From the NCBI RefSeq assembly GCF_026125785.1, contig NZ_JAHCKL010000003.1, positions 62,001 through 126,000 of the forward strand: 64,000 nucleotides of DNA, written 5' to 3'. Within the stretch, counting starts at the first letter, position 1, and each line of letters opens with the position of its first letter. The translations under genes were made by a program, and so were the position numbers. The stretch is from Hydrogenophaga sp. Its GTDB lineage: Bacteria > Pseudomonadota > Gammaproteobacteria > Burkholderiales > Burkholderiaceae_C. Positions 8,586-27,472 of the stretch are shown piece by piece. The notes beneath the pieces were generated by a model. That model saw only the letters and a program-made list of their open reading frames with translations. It did not search any database and had not been told where the DNA came from.

Positions 8586-9066
8586 CCATCTCCGTTCGGG
8601 TGGGGCCCATCGAAACCCACCCGCGCCCGCATTGCGCGAGGCCTTCGACAGGCTCAGGCCGAACGGGGAGTCTGGGTCTCGGACGCACGGGAGCGCTGGG
8701 CTTGGGTCGCACAGGGGTGCTGTACTTGGGTTGCTCGGGAGCGCTGTGCTTGTGTTGCACGGGAGTGCTGTGCTTGGTTCGCACGGAATGAGCCACCCCC
8801 TCCGTTCGGGCTGAGCTTGTCGAAGCCCACCCCCACCCGGAGTGTGCGAGGCCTTCGACAGGCTCAGGCCGAACGGGGAGTCTGGGTCTCGGACGCGCGG
8901 GAGCGCTGGGCTTGGGTCGCACAGGGGTGCTGTACTTGGGTTGCTCGGGCGTGCTGTGCTTGGTTCGCACGGGATGAGCCACCCCCTCCGTTCGGGCTGA
9001 GCTTGTCGAAGCCCACCCCCACGCGGAGCGTGCGAGGCCTTCGACAGGCTCAGGCCGAACGGGAGT
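8586..9066. repeat. Array of palindromic repeats plus larger tandem units, inside the BMP transporter operon
   Basis: This 553-base interval (8555-9107) contains no credible gene. It holds alternating direct and inverted copies of the core TTCGGGCTGAGCCTGTCGAA: reverse-orientation copies begin near 8642, 8852 and 9038, and forward copies near 8803 and 8991, with a degraded one at 8592. Around them is a larger duplicated unit. The block starting GCCTTCGACAGG recurs at 8641, 8851 and 9037, giving tandem spacings of 210 and 186 bases, and each complete unit carries the same stretch of guanine-rich filler. Paired arms can form strong hairpins in RNA. The array lies between a binding-protein gene and its permease genes, the position where REP elements stabilise upstream mRNA in malEFG. 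Confidence 0.9.
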
Positions 9067-12280: not shown

Positions 12281-12344
12281 TCCCGTTCGGTCTGAGCCTG
12301 TCGAAGACCCCGCGAGCACTTCGACAGGCTCAGTGCGAACGGGA
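12281..12344. repeat. Inverted pair of TTCGGGCTGAGCCTGTCGAA-type repeats before atzG
   Basis: Two 26-base arms, 12281-12306 and 12319-12344, are reverse complements with two mismatches, separated by 13 bases. Each is a copy of the same dispersed repeat found at 8.6-9.1, 21.5 and 26.3 kb. In RNA of the ureide operon it would form a long hairpin ending 11 bases upstream of the atzG start codon. The rest of the 154-base gap to the upstream ATPase gene shows only a degraded CCGAACGG fragment near 12400. Confidence 0.9.
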
Positions 12345-21458: not shown

Positions 21459-21594
21459 TTTCCCGTACGGGCTGAACCCCCTTCCGTTCGAGTTGCGCCC
21501 CCTCCCGTTTGGGCTGAGCTCTCTCCCGTTCGGGCTGAGCTCTCTCCCGTTCGGGCTGAGCTCTCTCCCGTTCGGGCTGAGCTTGTCGAAGCCC
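21459..21594. repeat. 21-base tandem repeats built on the TTCGGGCTGAG core
   Basis: Between the SDR and carboxyltransferase genes, a 21-base unit (CTCCCGTTCGGGCTGAGCTC with one more T) is repeated about four times from 21502. The last copy continues into the full repeat end TGAGCTTGTCGAAGCCC. Two decayed copies lie upstream at 21459 and 21482. The remainder of the 249-base gap (21595-21682) holds the Shine-Dalgarno of the next gene and no other feature I can identify. This copy number expansion of only the left half of the element suggests slippage after insertion. Confidence 0.85.
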
Positions 21595-21682: not shown

Positions 21683-23323
21683 GTGAACGGGTTTGACTCC
21701 AGCTTCAATCCGCAAAGCACGCAAGCGCTGCAACGCCGCGAGGCCATGCTGGCGCGCGTGGCGGAACTGCGCGCGCTCGAAGACCGCGCCGCCCAGGCCT
21801 CGGCGAAGTCGAAGCCGGTGTTCGACAAGCGTGGCCAGTTGCTGCCGCGCGAACGCGTGGCGCTGCTGCTGGATCCGGGTGCGCCCTATGTGCCGCTGTG
21901 CACCCTGGCGGGCTTTCTGCAGGACACCCGGGACCCTGGCACGTCCGTGCCTGGCGGCGGCATCGTGGCCGGCATGGGCTTCGTCGCCGGGGTGCGCTGC
22001 ATGGTGGTGGCCAGCGACTCGGGCATCGAGGCCGGTGCGATCCAGCCACGTGGCCTGGAGAAGATCCTTCGGGTGCAGGAGATCGCGCTGGAGAACCGCC
22101 TGCCCTTCGTGCACCTGGTGGAAAGCGCGGGCGCCAACCTCACCAAGTACAAGGTCGAAGGCTTTGTGCACGGGGGCTCCCTGTTCCGCAACCTGGCGCG
22201 GCTCTCGGCCGCCGGCATCCCGGTCATCACCGTGCAGCACGGATCGGGCACGGCGGGCGGTGCGTACATGCCGGGCTTGTCGGACGTGGTCGTCATGGTG
22301 CGCGGCCGCTCGCGCGCCTTCCTGGCCGGGCCGCCGCTGCTGATGGCGGCGACAGGCGAGGTGGCGACCGAAGAAGAACTGGGCGGTGCGGAGATGCACA
22401 CCACCGTGTCTGGCCTGGGCGAGTACCTGGCGCAGGACGACCGCGAGGCGCTGGGCATCGCGCGCCAGGTGGTGGCCTCCGTGCGGGAAACCGCTCGCAC
22501 GGGGCCTGTCGAAGCTTCTCCAGCCCCACAGGCCGGGGGGGCGTCCGGCCCCGCCTGCGATCCCGATGACCTGCTTGCCCTCATGCCCACGCACCACCGC
22601 GAGCCGGTGGACATGCACGAGGTCATGGCCCGTATCGCGGACGGCTCCCGGCTGCTGGCGTTCAAGCCGCTCTACGGCGCGGCCACGCTGTGCGTGCAGG
22701 CCCGCATTGGCGGGCACGCGGTGGGGCTCATCAGCAACAACGGACCCATCGACGTGGCCGGCGCGAACAAGGCCACGCACTTCATCCAGTGGATGTGCCA
22801 GTTGGGCCACCCCATCGTCTACCTGCAGAACACCACCGGCTACATGGTGGGCAAGGACAGTGAGCAGGGCGGCATGATCAAGCACGGCAGCAAGATGATC
22901 CAGGCCGTCACCAACGCCACGGTGCCCCAGATCACTATCCAGTGCGGCGCCTCTTTTGGCGCCGGCAACTACGGCATGTGCGGACGCGGTTTCGCGCCGC
23001 GCTTCCTGTTCAGCTGGCCGCAGGCGAGGACGGCGGTGATGGGGGGCGAGCAGGCCGCGCGCACCATGCAGATCGTGGCCGAGGCGGGCATGGCCCGCAA
23101 GGGCATTGCACCCGACCCGGTGCAGATGCAGGCCCAGTTCGACCACATCGTGCAGGTGTTCGAGAGCCAGGCCGACGTCTTCCACACCAGTGGTCTGGTG
23201 CTGGACGACGGCGTGATCGACCCGCGCGACACTCGTGCCGTGCTGGCCTTCTGCCTGGACACCTGTGCCGAGGCGGCCGCGCGCGAACCCCGGCGCATGC
23301 AGTTCGGCGTGGCGCGCATGTAG
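21683..23323 (+). CDS. acyl-CoA carboxylase carboxyltransferase (beta) subunit, AtuC/GCC-like
   Basis: 546 residues; GTG 21683 start with GGAG 8 bases upstream. The two halves of the crotonase-like carboxyltransferase fold are visible, with the acyl-CoA site HGSGTAGGAYMPGLSD and the carboxybiotin site ASFGAGNYGMCGRGFAPRF. HGSGTAGGAYMPGLSD differs from the MGSCTAGGAYVPAM form I associate with methylcrotonyl-CoA carboxylase and is closer to geranyl-CoA carboxylase AtuC. The linker at residues ~270-290 (ETARTGPVEASPAPQ) contains a relic of the dispersed repeat. It should pair with the biotin carboxylase/BCCP subunit at 25400-27472. Confidence 0.88.
   Translation: MNGFDSSFNPQSTQALQRREAMLARVAELRALEDRAAQASAKSKPVFDKRGQLLPRERVALLLDPGAPYVPLCTLAGFLQDTRDPGTSVPGGGIVAGMGFVAGVRCMVVASDSGIEAGAIQPRGLEKILRVQEIALENRLPFVHLVESAGANLTKYKVEGFVHGGSLFRNLARLSAAGIPVITVQHGSGTAGGAYMPGLSDVVVMVRGRSRAFLAGPPLLMAATGEVATEEELGGAEMHTTVSGLGEYLAQDDREALGIARQVVASVRETARTGPVEASPAPQAGGASGPACDPDDLLALMPTHHREPVDMHEVMARIADGSRLLAFKPLYGAATLCVQARIGGHAVGLISNNGPIDVAGANKATHFIQWMCQLGHPIVYLQNTTGYMVGKDSEQGGMIKHGSKMIQAVTNATVPQITIQCGASFGAGNYGMCGRGFAPRFLFSWPQARTAVMGGEQAARTMQIVAEAGMARKGIAPDPVQMQAQFDHIVQVFESQADVFHTSGLVLDDGVIDPRDTRAVLAFCLDTCAEAAAREPRRMQFGVARM
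22493..22515. repeat. Degraded in-gene copy of the dispersed repeat
   Basis: The 23 bases match the repeat consensus at about 18 positions, with the right half GGCCTGTCGAAGC intact and the left half mutated. It encodes RTGPVEA in the variable linker between the two carboxyltransferase halves, just as PVEA is encoded by intact copies elsewhere. The assignment as a relic rather than chance is moderate. Confidence 0.45.
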
Positions 23324-24567: not shown

Positions 24568-25403
24568 GCGTGGACCCCTTTCTCGTCGACCGTCAGGGCG
24601 ATACCGAGCGCTGGACGCTCAACGACCCGGCTTCGCGCAACGCGCTGTCCGACACCATGGTGCTGGGCCTGTACGAAGCCGCGCTGCGCGCGCAGCGGGA
24701 TCCGTCGCTGCGCTTCATCGTGCTCGATGGCGCGGGCGGCGCCTTCAGCGCCGGTGGCAGCCTGGGCGGTTTTGCCAGCGCCATTGGCCAGGCGCTGGCG
24801 CCGGGCGAGGAAGACCCGCTGGTGGCACTGAACCGGGGCTATGGCGACTTGCTCCATGCCCTGTGCGAGCTGCCGCAACTGCTGCTGTGCGTGGTGGACG
24901 GTGCCGCGATGGGCGGCGGATTCGGCCTGGTGTGCTGCGCCGACCATGTGATCGCCACCCGGCGCGCCACCCTGGGCACGCCCGAAGTCACGTTGGGCCT
25001 GCCGCCGGCGCAGATCGCCCCCTTCGTGTGGCAGCGGCTGGGCGATGCCGCCGCACGCCAGTGCCTGCTGCAGGGGCGCGTGCTGCGGGCCGAAGAAGCG
25101 CTGGCCGTGGGGCTGGTGGACGAACTGGTGGACGAGGCGGCGCTGGACGCCAGCGTGCGTGCCCGCGTGCAGGCGCTGCGCCGCGCTGCGCCCGCGGCGG
25201 TGGCCAGCACCAAGCGCCTGCTGCAGCGGCTGCGCGTTCGCGTGCCCGACCTGCGCGATGAGGCCGCCATTGCCTTCGCCACGGCCCTGCGCGGCCCGGA
25301 AGCGGCGGCCGGCCTGTCGGCGTTCGCGAAGAAGCACCCCGCGCCGTGGGCACAGGAGCCCGCGCGGGCCGGTGCCGGATCGGATGGGGGCGGCAAGACA
25401 TGA
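24564..25403 (+). CDS. enoyl-CoA hydratase/isomerase family protein (AtuE/LiuC-like)
   Basis: 279 residues of the crotonase fold. The oxyanion-hole segments are GAGGAFSAGGSLGGFAS and VDGAAMGGGFGLVCCADHVI, followed by LGTPEVTLGLPPAQIAPFVW. The last ~20 residues are glycine- and alanine-rich and extend the usual family end. Given its position between the carboxyltransferase/dehydrogenase and biotin carboxylase genes, it probably hydrates the carboxylated unsaturated acyl-CoA (isohexenyl-glutaconyl-CoA or methylglutaconyl-CoA). ATGA overlaps on both sides couple its translation to its neighbours. Confidence 0.85.
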   Translation: MSVDPFLVDRQGDTERWTLNDPASRNALSDTMVLGLYEAALRAQRDPSLRFIVLDGAGGAFSAGGSLGGFASAIGQALAPGEEDPLVALNRGYGDLLHALCELPQLLLCVVDGAAMGGGFGLVCCADHVIATRRATLGTPEVTLGLPPAQIAPFVWQRLGDAAARQCLLQGRVLRAEEALAVGLVDELVDEAALDASVRARVQALRRAAPAAVASTKRLLQRLRVRVPDLRDEAAIAFATALRGPEAAAGLSAFAKKHPAPWAQEPARAGAGSDGGGKT

Positions 25404-27472
25404 AGCGCCTCCTGATCGCCAACCGCGGCGAGATCGCCCGTCGCGTCATCCGCACCGCCCATGCCATGGGCATCGAGACCGTGGCCGTCTTTTCCGAGCC
25501 CGATGCCGGCGCGCTGCACGTGCGCGAGGCCACTGTCGCGTTCGCGCTCGGCGGCGCGGCCTCGGCCGACAGTTACCTGCGCGTGGACCGCCTGCTGGCT
25601 GCCGCGCGCGCCACCGGGGCGGACGCGTTGCACCCCGGTTACGGCTTTCTCAGCGAGGACGCGGATTTTGCCCAGGCCGTGATCGACGCCGGCCTGACCT
25701 GGGTCGGTCCTCCACCCGCCGCCATCCGCGCGCTGGGCAGCAAATCGGCGGCCAAGGCACTGGCGCAGGCGCAGGGCGTGCCCTGCCTGCCGGGCTACTT
25801 TGGCACCGACCAGCGCGACGAGACCTTTGTCGCCGAAGCCCGGCGCATGGGCTTTCCCCTCATGGTCAAGGCCGTGGCCGGTGGCGGCGGCCGCGGCATG
25901 CGCCTGGTGACCGAGGCGTCGCAATTGCCCGCTGCCTTGCAGAGTGCGCGTTCTGAGGCGCGGGCGGGCTTTGCGAATGCCGACCTGCTGATCGAACGCG
26001 CCCTGCTGCGGCCCCGGCATGTGGAGGTGCAGGTGTTTGCCGACGCGCATGGCCACTGCATCCACCTCGGTGAACGCGATTGCTCGGTGCAGCGCCGGCA
26101 CCAGAAGATCATCGAAGAAGCGCCCAGTCCGGTGGTCTCGCCCGCGCTGCGAGAGGCCTTGGGCCGGTGCGCGGTGGCACTGGCCCAGGCGGCGGGCTAT
26201 GTGGGGGCGGGGACGGTGGAGTTTCTGTTGGACGAGGTCGAACGGGAGGGCGAGGGCTTCGACAGGCTCAGCCCGAACGGTGGTGGACTCAGCCCGAACG
26301 GTGGTGGGCTCGGCCCGGATGGTGGACTCGGTTGGGATGGGGGTGAGACCACCCCCCCCGTTCGGGCTGAGCCTGTCGAAGCCCTCACCCACCCGGCCTT
26401 CTTCCTGATGGAGATGAACACCCGCCTGCAGGTGGAACACCCCGTCACGGAAGCGCTCACCGGCCTGGATCTCGTGGAATGGCAACTGCGCGTGGCGCGC
26501 GGCGAGCCGCTGCCGCTGACGCAGGACCAGGTGCGCCTGCAGGGCCATGCCATCGAGGTGCGCCTGTGCGCCGAAGACGAGCACCACACGCCGCACACCG
26601 GCCGCGTGCTCCGGTTCGACGCACCACCGCCCGTCCCGGGCCTGCGCTTCGACCATGCGCTGGAGGCCGGGACCGTGGTGACGCCTCACTACGACGCCAT
26701 GCTGGGCAAGCTCATCGCGCATGCACCCACGCGCACCGAAGCGGCGGACCGTCTGGCGTGTGCGCTCGATGGCACACGGCTGCTGGGCCTGCCCACCAAC
26801 CGGGCCTTTCTCGCCGCCTGCCTGCGCCATCCGGTATTCCGTGCCGGCGAAGCGCGCATTCCCTTCCTGGCCGAACAGGGCGAGGCCGTGCGCGCGGCCC
26901 TGAGCCCACCGGCCGACGCCGTACTGGCCGCCGTGCTGGCGGCGACCTTCCACGAACGGCCGCCCGCGCTGGCGCTGCCGTGCCCGTTCGCGCGCGGGCT
27001 GCGCTGGCAACACGGCGAGGCCTTGCTCGAACCCGTGTTGCGCGAAACCGGTGCCGCAAGCCTGCAAGTGGTCTTGGCGGGACGCGAGTGGCGGGCAGAG
27101 GTGTCGCCCGGCCGCGTGTGGGTGGACGGCGTCGCCTGGCCCGTGGCCGCGGTGCCACTGGGCGCCGGGCGCTGGCAGGTGCAGGCGGGCGCCCATACGC
27201 TGGAACTGCGCGACCTCAGCCTGGCCGCGCGCGAAGGGGCCGGTGGCGGCGCGGCCGCGCGCGAACTGCGCGCCCCGTTCAACGGCCGCCTGATCGCCGT
27301 GCATGCACAAGCCGGTGCGGCCCTCGCCAAAGGCGAGCCGTTGCTCGTCATCGAGTCCATGAAGCTCGAACACACCCTGGCCGCGCCGCGCGATCTGCGC
27401 GTGGAAGGTGTCTCGGTCGCCTCCGGCCAGCAGGTGGTGCCAGGGCAGTTGCTGGTGACGTTCGCGCCATGA
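25400..27472 (+). CDS. acyl-CoA carboxylase biotin carboxylase/BCCP (alpha) subunit with in-frame repeat insertion
   Basis: 690 residues. The biotin carboxylase N-domain begins MKRLLIANRGEIARRVIRTA. The ATP-grasp part shows KAVAGGGGRGMRLV and ERDCSVQRRHQKIIEEAPSP, then MEMNTRLQVEHPVTE. The C-terminal biotinyl domain ends with VIESMKLEHTLAAP, where Lys655 should carry biotin. Between GTVEFLLDEVER and FFLMEMNTR lies a foreign 45-residue segment (residues 285-329) encoded by a palindromic repeat at 26252-26386; related enzymes have only a short beta-turn there. The frame is kept, with no stop, so the protein may still work. It should form the holoenzyme with the subunit at 21683-23323. Confidence 0.9.
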   Translation: MKRLLIANRGEIARRVIRTAHAMGIETVAVFSEPDAGALHVREATVAFALGGAASADSYLRVDRLLAAARATGADALHPGYGFLSEDADFAQAVIDAGLTWVGPPPAAIRALGSKSAAKALAQAQGVPCLPGYFGTDQRDETFVAEARRMGFPLMVKAVAGGGGRGMRLVTEASQLPAALQSARSEARAGFANADLLIERALLRPRHVEVQVFADAHGHCIHLGERDCSVQRRHQKIIEEAPSPVVSPALREALGRCAVALAQAAGYVGAGTVEFLLDEVEREGEGFDRLSPNGGGLSPNGGGLGPDGGLGWDGGETTPPVRAEPVEALTHPAFFLMEMNTRLQVEHPVTEALTGLDLVEWQLRVARGEPLPLTQDQVRLQGHAIEVRLCAEDEHHTPHTGRVLRFDAPPPVPGLRFDHALEAGTVVTPHYDAMLGKLIAHAPTRTEAADRLACALDGTRLLGLPTNRAFLAACLRHPVFRAGEARIPFLAEQGEAVRAALSPPADAVLAAVLAATFHERPPALALPCPFARGLRWQHGEALLEPVLRETGAASLQVVLAGREWRAEVSPGRVWVDGVAWPVAAVPLGAGRWQVQAGAHTLELRDLSLAAREGAGGGAAARELRAPFNGRLIAVHAQAGAALAKGEPLLVIESMKLEHTLAAPRDLRVEGVSVASGQQVVPGQLLVTFAP
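26252..26386. repeat. 135-base palindromic repeat inserted in frame in the biotin carboxylase gene
   Basis: Perfect 29-base inverted arms at 26252-26280 and 26358-26386 (each containing TTCGGGCTGAGCCTGTCGAA or its complement) flank 77 bases. Within those are two more partial core copies (ending near 26300 and 26320) and guanine-rich filler. Length 135 = 45 codons, no stop in the reading frame. The coded segment runs from EGFDRLSPNGGG to PVRAEPVEAL. No target-site duplication is evident. Confidence 0.93.

Follow-up and report, generated by a model that had tools for sequence, protein, structure and literature searches.

In-frame palindromic repeats in a beta-hairpin turn of a Hydrogenophaga acyl-CoA carboxylase, an apparent insertion hotspot

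A stretch of 64,000 nucleotides from Hydrogenophaga sp. (GCF_026125785.1, contig NZ_JAHCKL010000003.1, positions 62,001 to 126,000), hereafter the window, carries the gene of an acyl-CoA carboxylase alpha subunit (25400..27472, forward strand). A palindromic element of 135 nt (26252..26386, forward strand) lies in frame inside this gene. The element is, with a probability of about 0.8, a copy of a hairpin repeat resembling repetitive extragenic palindromic (REP) sequences that was placed in frame in a tolerant hairpin turn of the biotin carboxylase. The repeat family, its in-frame position, an empty site in a sister, the recurrence of several repeat families in the turn and the purifying selection on the gene were obtained by computation, and a structure model predicts a disordered loop. 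Three dissimilar families, here called A, B and C, occupy the same turn in related bacteria, and the beta-hairpin looks like an insertion hotspot, where spreading DNA can land and be tolerated.

The insert in the carboxylase gene

The open reading frame (ORF) encodes 690 residues without stops and is intact. It comprises biotin carboxylase and biotin carboxyl carrier protein (domains Biotin_carb_N, CPSase_L_D2, Biotin_carb_C and Biotin_lipoyl). The nearest solved sequence is the methylcrotonyl-CoA carboxylase alpha subunit of Pseudomonas aeruginosa (3u9s), while all NCBIfam matches fell below the equivalog cut-offs. The element corresponds to residues 285-329. A first-pass annotation of the DNA had described perfect inverted arms of 29 bases and a length in frame without stop. 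Both were confirmed: the left arm (26252..26280, forward strand), once reverse-complemented, is identical over 29 nt to the right arm (26358..26386, forward strand), and the 135 nt are read through within the single ORF. A repeat search extended the arms to 44 nt at 91% complementarity. Both arms contain the family A core GTTCGGGCTGAGCCTGTCGAAG with 0 mismatches, on the reverse strand at 26257..26278 and on the forward strand at 26360..26381. Four degenerate direct repeats with steps of 21, 21 and 18 nt (26260..26345, forward strand) extend over the left core and the interval leading to the right arm.

The whole beta-hairpin, from GTVEFL to LQVEH (26210..26440, forward strand), has 77 residues in the window gene and 25-29 in insert-free orthologues. 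The nearest neighbour of the window gene in the tree, L061 of Hydrogenophaga sp. IBVHS1 (Shimodaira-Hasegawa-like approximate likelihood ratio test, SH-aLRT, 95), has an empty hairpin of 25 residues, and the alignment with a sister lacking the insert, which the annotation had proposed as a check, thus found one. About 52 residues are added against this sister, seven of them outside the 135-nt element. The in-frame insertion therefore stands, while the figure of exactly 45 added residues does not. Nor does the element lie directly between GTVEFLL and MEMN, as the second strand, AFFLMEMN, is retained.

In the AlphaFold2 model, 594 of 690 residues reach a predicted local distance difference test (pLDDT) score of at least 70 (mean pLDDT across five models 64-83). 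The insert is predicted to form a disordered loop between two strands (269-277 and 334-340), residues 282-330 (26243..26389, forward strand) having a pLDDT below 50. The best fold matches were methylcrotonyl- and propionyl-CoA carboxylases. Full-length matches superpose poorly, with a template modelling (TM) score of about 0.6-0.7, and the biotin carboxylase domains alone superpose to about 2-3 Å in many entries. The residues E274 and E338, one on each hairpin strand, are invariant in 32 aligned orthologues. By the alignment offset, E274 equals E276 of Escherichia coli biotin carboxylase, which, like E288, is a ligand of Mg-ATP in that enzyme. The single-stranded RNA of 26243-26395 has a predicted folding energy of -114 kcal/mol (z -8.7 relative to 200 shuffled sequences).

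The gene is under purifying selection and without sign of decay. Between the window gene and its empty sister, the ratio of nonsynonymous to synonymous substitution rates (dN/dS) amounts to 0.11 on the left side of the insert and 0.23 on the right, compared with 0.14 and 0.25 between two empty orthologues. A pseudogene, which the annotation had named as a finding that would speak against an insertion tolerated by the enzyme, was thus not encountered.

Inserts in the hairpin of orthologues

The hairpin between GTVEFL and LQVEH was read in loci from 60 genomes of the genus and in 80 named records, which left 108 homologues once duplicates were merged. An insert of family A, B or C is present in frame in 28 of them: B in 16, C in six, A in three, B and C together in two, and A and B in one. 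No large insert was found in 74 orthologues, whose hairpins have at most 29 residues; some members of Hydrogenophaga, Acidovorax and Curvibacter have an empty hairpin of 25 residues. The remaining six hairpins, of 32-54 residues, match no family and limit the attribution of long turns to these repeats. With the exception of these six, repeat-free hairpins have 25-29 residues; the same long loop without the DNA repeat, the other counter-evidence the annotation had named, was not seen among them. A diverged homologue with 51% identity (L046, genome G030), counted among the 108, has a family B insert in the equivalent hairpin.

Family B is a unit of roughly 77 nt that reads FAAGPPQGETAPSGGSDPRSGGAWG in one frame and SPPGRPKAK in another. 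Family C is a short palindrome with the peptide PHPxPLPxGEG. The longest stretch common to the consensus strings of any two of the families A, B and C is 4-6 nt, and the reading frames of the inserts differ among species. The use of this turn by two further repeat families had escaped the annotation. Several hairpins hold arrays. L162 (genome G005) has five full B units of 28 residues and a partial sequence in a hairpin of 182 residues, L178 (genome G056) has C plus four B units, and L078 has an A pair plus two B units.

A motif scan of the 108 genes placed 45 of 49 matches inside the hairpin, which makes up 12,309 of 216,813 scanned nucleotides, inserts counted. The four matches outside it (L071, L135 and twice in L140) qualify the confinement to this turn. 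The next-largest internal insertion among 72 distinct aligned full-length sequences has 21 residues. The tree, which omits the hairpin turn, comes from a quick search in which SH-aLRT is the only measure of support, and of its 105 inner branches 31 are unsupported; on this tree, presence and absence require at least 16 changes, and all insert labels 25.

The family A repeat

The scan of the draft genome (46 contigs, 4.17 Mb) detected 106 copies of the family A core (49+57) at up to three mismatches, compared with one (1+0) for the reversed control. Ten matches are located in the window, where 0 are expected. The consensus of 104 aligned copies is ccGTTC, a 5-nt stem, GAGCYTGTCGA and the stem again. 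Of 106 distinct copies (fetched loci, without shuffled control), 87 have stem arms that pair perfectly. The pairs GGGCT/AGCCC (49) and GCCCT/AGGGC (29) prevail, and five others account for nine copies together. The complementarity through seven different arm pairs indicates that the hairpin varies in sequence but keeps its pairing. Among 97 of the 106 places, 44 of 46 close pairs are inverted: 21 are +- with 12-29 nt between the cores and 23 are -+ with 29-191 nt, besides two ++ pairs. Family A resembles the REP type in being a hairpin-forming short repeat of high genomic copy number.

The exact pattern GTTCGSSCTGAGCYTGTCGAAG is present in 44 of 60 genomes of the genus, the window genome included, with 0 to 88 copies per genome. 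In the class, 13 of 274 genomes contain a longer family A pattern. The window genome has 76 copies of it and another genome of the genus 56, followed by 11 others with at most 10 each.

The annotation had regarded the repeat as compatible with peptide coding in several frames. Several frames are indeed open (four of six in the 135-nt element), but composition-matched shuffles of the consensus are about as open: they reach the observed number in 78% of cases for A and C and in 31% for B. The open frames are therefore no sign of coding adaptation, and a special adaptation of the repeats to coding is not supported. In a homology search, the repeat peptides VRAEPVEA, FDRLSPNG and ASTGSART gave weak repeat-only matches to unrelated places.

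In-frame inserts in other genes

A codon-usage test on the 51 family A clusters of the window genome yielded nine in-frame candidates. Seven of the 51 clusters were accepted as lying in frame in conserved genes, namely the carboxylase, PurL (twice), SelO, XdhB, MutL and a UvrA-like gene; the test leaves some other clusters unplaced. Two candidates passed the test and were rejected: in L142 the copy is located 5' of a carboxylase gene, and the ORF in L158 has only 105 residues. The former copy (about 1675-1696 in L142) is just upstream of another biotin carboxylase-type gene and is a possible leader element. The survey for in-gene copies that the annotation had suggested thus found in-frame family A in six conserved genes, the carboxylase included. 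Together with the empty sister and the purifying selection, this supports its proposal of a spreading repeat that tolerates coding insertion in the manner of Rickettsia palindromic elements (RPEs).

Three of these proteins were aligned with solved structures. In SelO (L005), most of the insert is opposite gaps of the solved protein. In XdhB (L008, G000:C3), matches to chain B of 1jro stop at query residue 449 and restart at 495, corresponding to chain residues 379 and 386; the family A copy occupies about 454-508 (54 residues), its end being aligned loosely to the chain. In the UvrA-like protein (L145, G000:C10), matches to solved UvrA stop at 663 and restart at 723, corresponding to chain residues 795 and 799.

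PurL (L004/L143, G000:C1, in the window genome) was matched in 54 of 60 genomes of the genus, and 30 loci were fetched (L232-L261), several of them incomplete. Its site 1 is a gap between two Pfam domains. Within open reading frames, site 1 contains A in five, B in five and C in four loci, and site 2 contains A in three and C in six, the assignments for L238, L240, L241, L242, L245 and L256 being read from context by eye. Since PurL site 1 holds all three families, the sharing of a loop by them is not unique to the carboxylase, yet it is not general. In the MutL linker (L202-L231), family A was found in 12 of 30 loci, while B and C had no match in the linker of these 30. Three family B matches in MutL ORFs fall in the N-terminal region, perhaps ahead of the real start codon, and restrict what can be read from this gene.

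Proposed mechanism

The element would be a non-autonomous, REP-like interspersed hairpin repeat that inserted in frame into the turn of the biotin carboxylase beta-hairpin, presumably by transposition and probably with neutral effect. Such repeats may insert widely, and most insertions elsewhere in genes would probably be purged. A few loops would tolerate long disordered inserts, and unrelated repeats would thus accumulate in them repeatedly. Inserts may then expand in tandem, and in-frame trimming may later leave only short remnants of them. The short pieces EVGSVGAA and STGSGRTEK at PurL site 1 suggest, from their sequence, such a trimming.

This model of supply and tolerance fits the observations best. 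Under it, a family should be seen in the loop more often in genomes where its copies abound. Copy numbers were compared in the 47 of 60 genomes of the genus with a readable hairpin, with statistics that ignore phylogeny. In the three genomes whose hairpin holds an A insert, the other A copies number 85, 86 and 86, compared with a median of 3 in the 44 genomes without one (37 have at most 11; one-sided p 0.002). For family B, the test gave p 0.03 (15 versus 32 genomes).

Several results weigh against insertion by a spreading repeat. Three genomes without an A insert in the hairpin contain 69, 81 and 85 A copies. The changes counted on the tree do not tell gains from losses. A comparison of the window gene with its empty sister by eye defined no target-site duplication, the junction being too diverged for one to be recognized. 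No mobilizer was found. The window genome has one gene that resembles a REP-associated tyrosine transposase (RAYT), the Y1_Tnp gene L141 (G000:C9:51295-51597), and the 3.3 kb of its locus are free of A, B and C motifs. Y1_Tnp genes are present in 51 of 60 genomes of the genus, usually one each, including genomes free of family A such as G007, G027 and G039. With no repeat at its locus and with such genes occurring without family A, the RAYT-like gene is not supported as the evident mobilizer.

On a broader scale, it is somewhat probable that core enzymes carry a few permissive loops that serve as shared sinks for unrelated mobile repeats and are filled, tandemly expanded and trimmed. Across a bacterial family, interspersed palindromes would thus keep supplying essential proteins with new disordered loops.

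Alternative explanations

The loop might be an ancestral expansion that the empty orthologues lost secondarily. The tree is blind to the difference between gain and loss, and similar inserts are common to some neighbouring species (e.g. L071/L165 and L074/L171). However, three families whose longest shared stretches are 4-6 nt meet at the site in different reading frames, and the empty hairpins of Hydrogenophaga, Acidovorax and Curvibacter would need many precise excisions, which makes a common ancestral loop quite unlikely. Only slightly better is the standing of an adaptive role, in which the enzyme or its translation would be regulated by the disordered loop or by a strong stem in the mRNA. 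It would account for the recurrence at a single site and for the very stable predicted RNA stem, but recurrence would also result from tolerance plus supply. Moreover, families, frames and lengths vary among species, and 74 of 108 orthologues keep the short hairpin.

A preference of the repeats for a DNA target, rather than tolerance of the protein, is also unlikely, though the strongest of the alternatives. A, B and C all occur both at the carboxylase hairpin and at PurL site 1, and one end of the window element, GAGGGC, is similar to the host codons CTG-GAG-GGC in the empty sister. The three families nevertheless lack appreciable mutual similarity, and the two sites are a hairpin turn and a gap between Pfam domains, as tolerance predicts. 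A pseudogene or an assembly artefact is very improbable. The draft genome was judged without reads, but the gene is free of stops and its dN/dS against the sister is 0.11-0.23; in addition, other families are inserted in frame at the same place in the records of named strains, among them Hydrogenophaga taeniospiralis CCUG 15921, H. aromaticivorans D2P1 and Acidovorax sp. sic0104. In-frame insertion of repeats into a tolerant turn is thus preferred, and a hotspot is the better reading than common origin, because the families are dissimilar and empty relatives exist.

Relation to known repeats

In-frame palindromic inserts are already known as a kind, as far as the parts of the literature consulted describe them. 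RPEs are palindromic repeats located in frame in unrelated genes, where they encode solvent-exposed stretches (passages of PMC3767692 and PMC10969869). Different RPE groups have been noted near one another in one gene of Rickettsia japonica, a hotspot or a common origin being left open in the sections consulted (PMC3767692). Family A resembles them in insertion habit, as a palindrome in frame in diverse conserved genes. It differs in the host lineage; in contrast to RPEs as described in those sections, the families that share a site here show no appreciable similarity, and the site is empty in a sister.

GTAG/CGTC REPs are short, mostly intergenic hairpins with frequent dimers and with copies inside uvrA and other repair genes, according to the portions of PMC3733652 consulted. 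Family A is similar to these in being a short hairpin repeat with intragenic copies, the UvrA-like gene among them. Membership of the GTAG/CGTC super-family was rejected, as the unpaired tag, defined in the same portions of PMC3733652, is absent and the 104-copy consensus beside the stem is CC-GTTC. Different REPs occur at about the same position of recB in two Xanthomonas species (Di Nocera 2013, PMC3733652, in part). The betaproteobacterial Thauera has GTAG-1 elements, also with 5-bp stems, while the main text, as far as consulted, does not name Acidovorax, Comamonas, Variovorax or Leptothrix (PMC3733652). Enterobacterial RU elements, repeats resembling miniature inverted-repeat transposable elements (MITEs), are located inside genes with the reading frame kept (Delihas 2007, PMC2759123, in part). 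They are other elements in other hosts, and the parts of PMC2759123 consulted do not mention several families at one site.

Family A has a high copy number and inverted neighbouring copies. Both properties are characteristic of REPs linked to RAYTs and of REP doublets forming hairpins (REPINs). A difference from these systems is that the RAYT-like gene of the window genome is not flanked by family A and that RAYT-like genes occur in A-free genomes.

Neither the family A repeat nor a loop shared by unrelated families was found described in the open-licence literature, a weak negative given this scope, and the sequence strings of family A were not met there. As far as searched, family A itself and the loops common to unrelated repeat families are new. 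If true, the shared-sink reading would mean that hotspots, and not a common origin, answer the question raised for RPE-4/6/7, at least in the present case; the choice between hotspot and common ancestry of coding palindromes becomes directly testable. One loop colonized recurrently by three families, with empty relatives, provides natural replicates of large insertions in a conserved enzyme. It also points to positions at which proteins may accept 50-150 additional residues, and such positions would be of use in protein engineering. Long loops annotated as lineage-specific can be repeats, and repeat-derived peptides can mislead homology searches.

Other features

Further family A copies in the window comprise a cluster of five cores (8643..9060), a pair (12285..12340) and a single core on the forward strand (21570..21591), the last upstream of a carboxyltransferase-like ORF starting at 21683. 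The codon test detected no in-frame insert at these three places. The ORFs adjoining the carboxylase gene resemble a carboxyltransferase, two acyl-CoA dehydrogenases, an enoyl-CoA hydratase and a thioesterase, of which only the thioesterase passed a curated cut-off. Repeat arrays were also observed at L180, L181 and L200 in genome G005.

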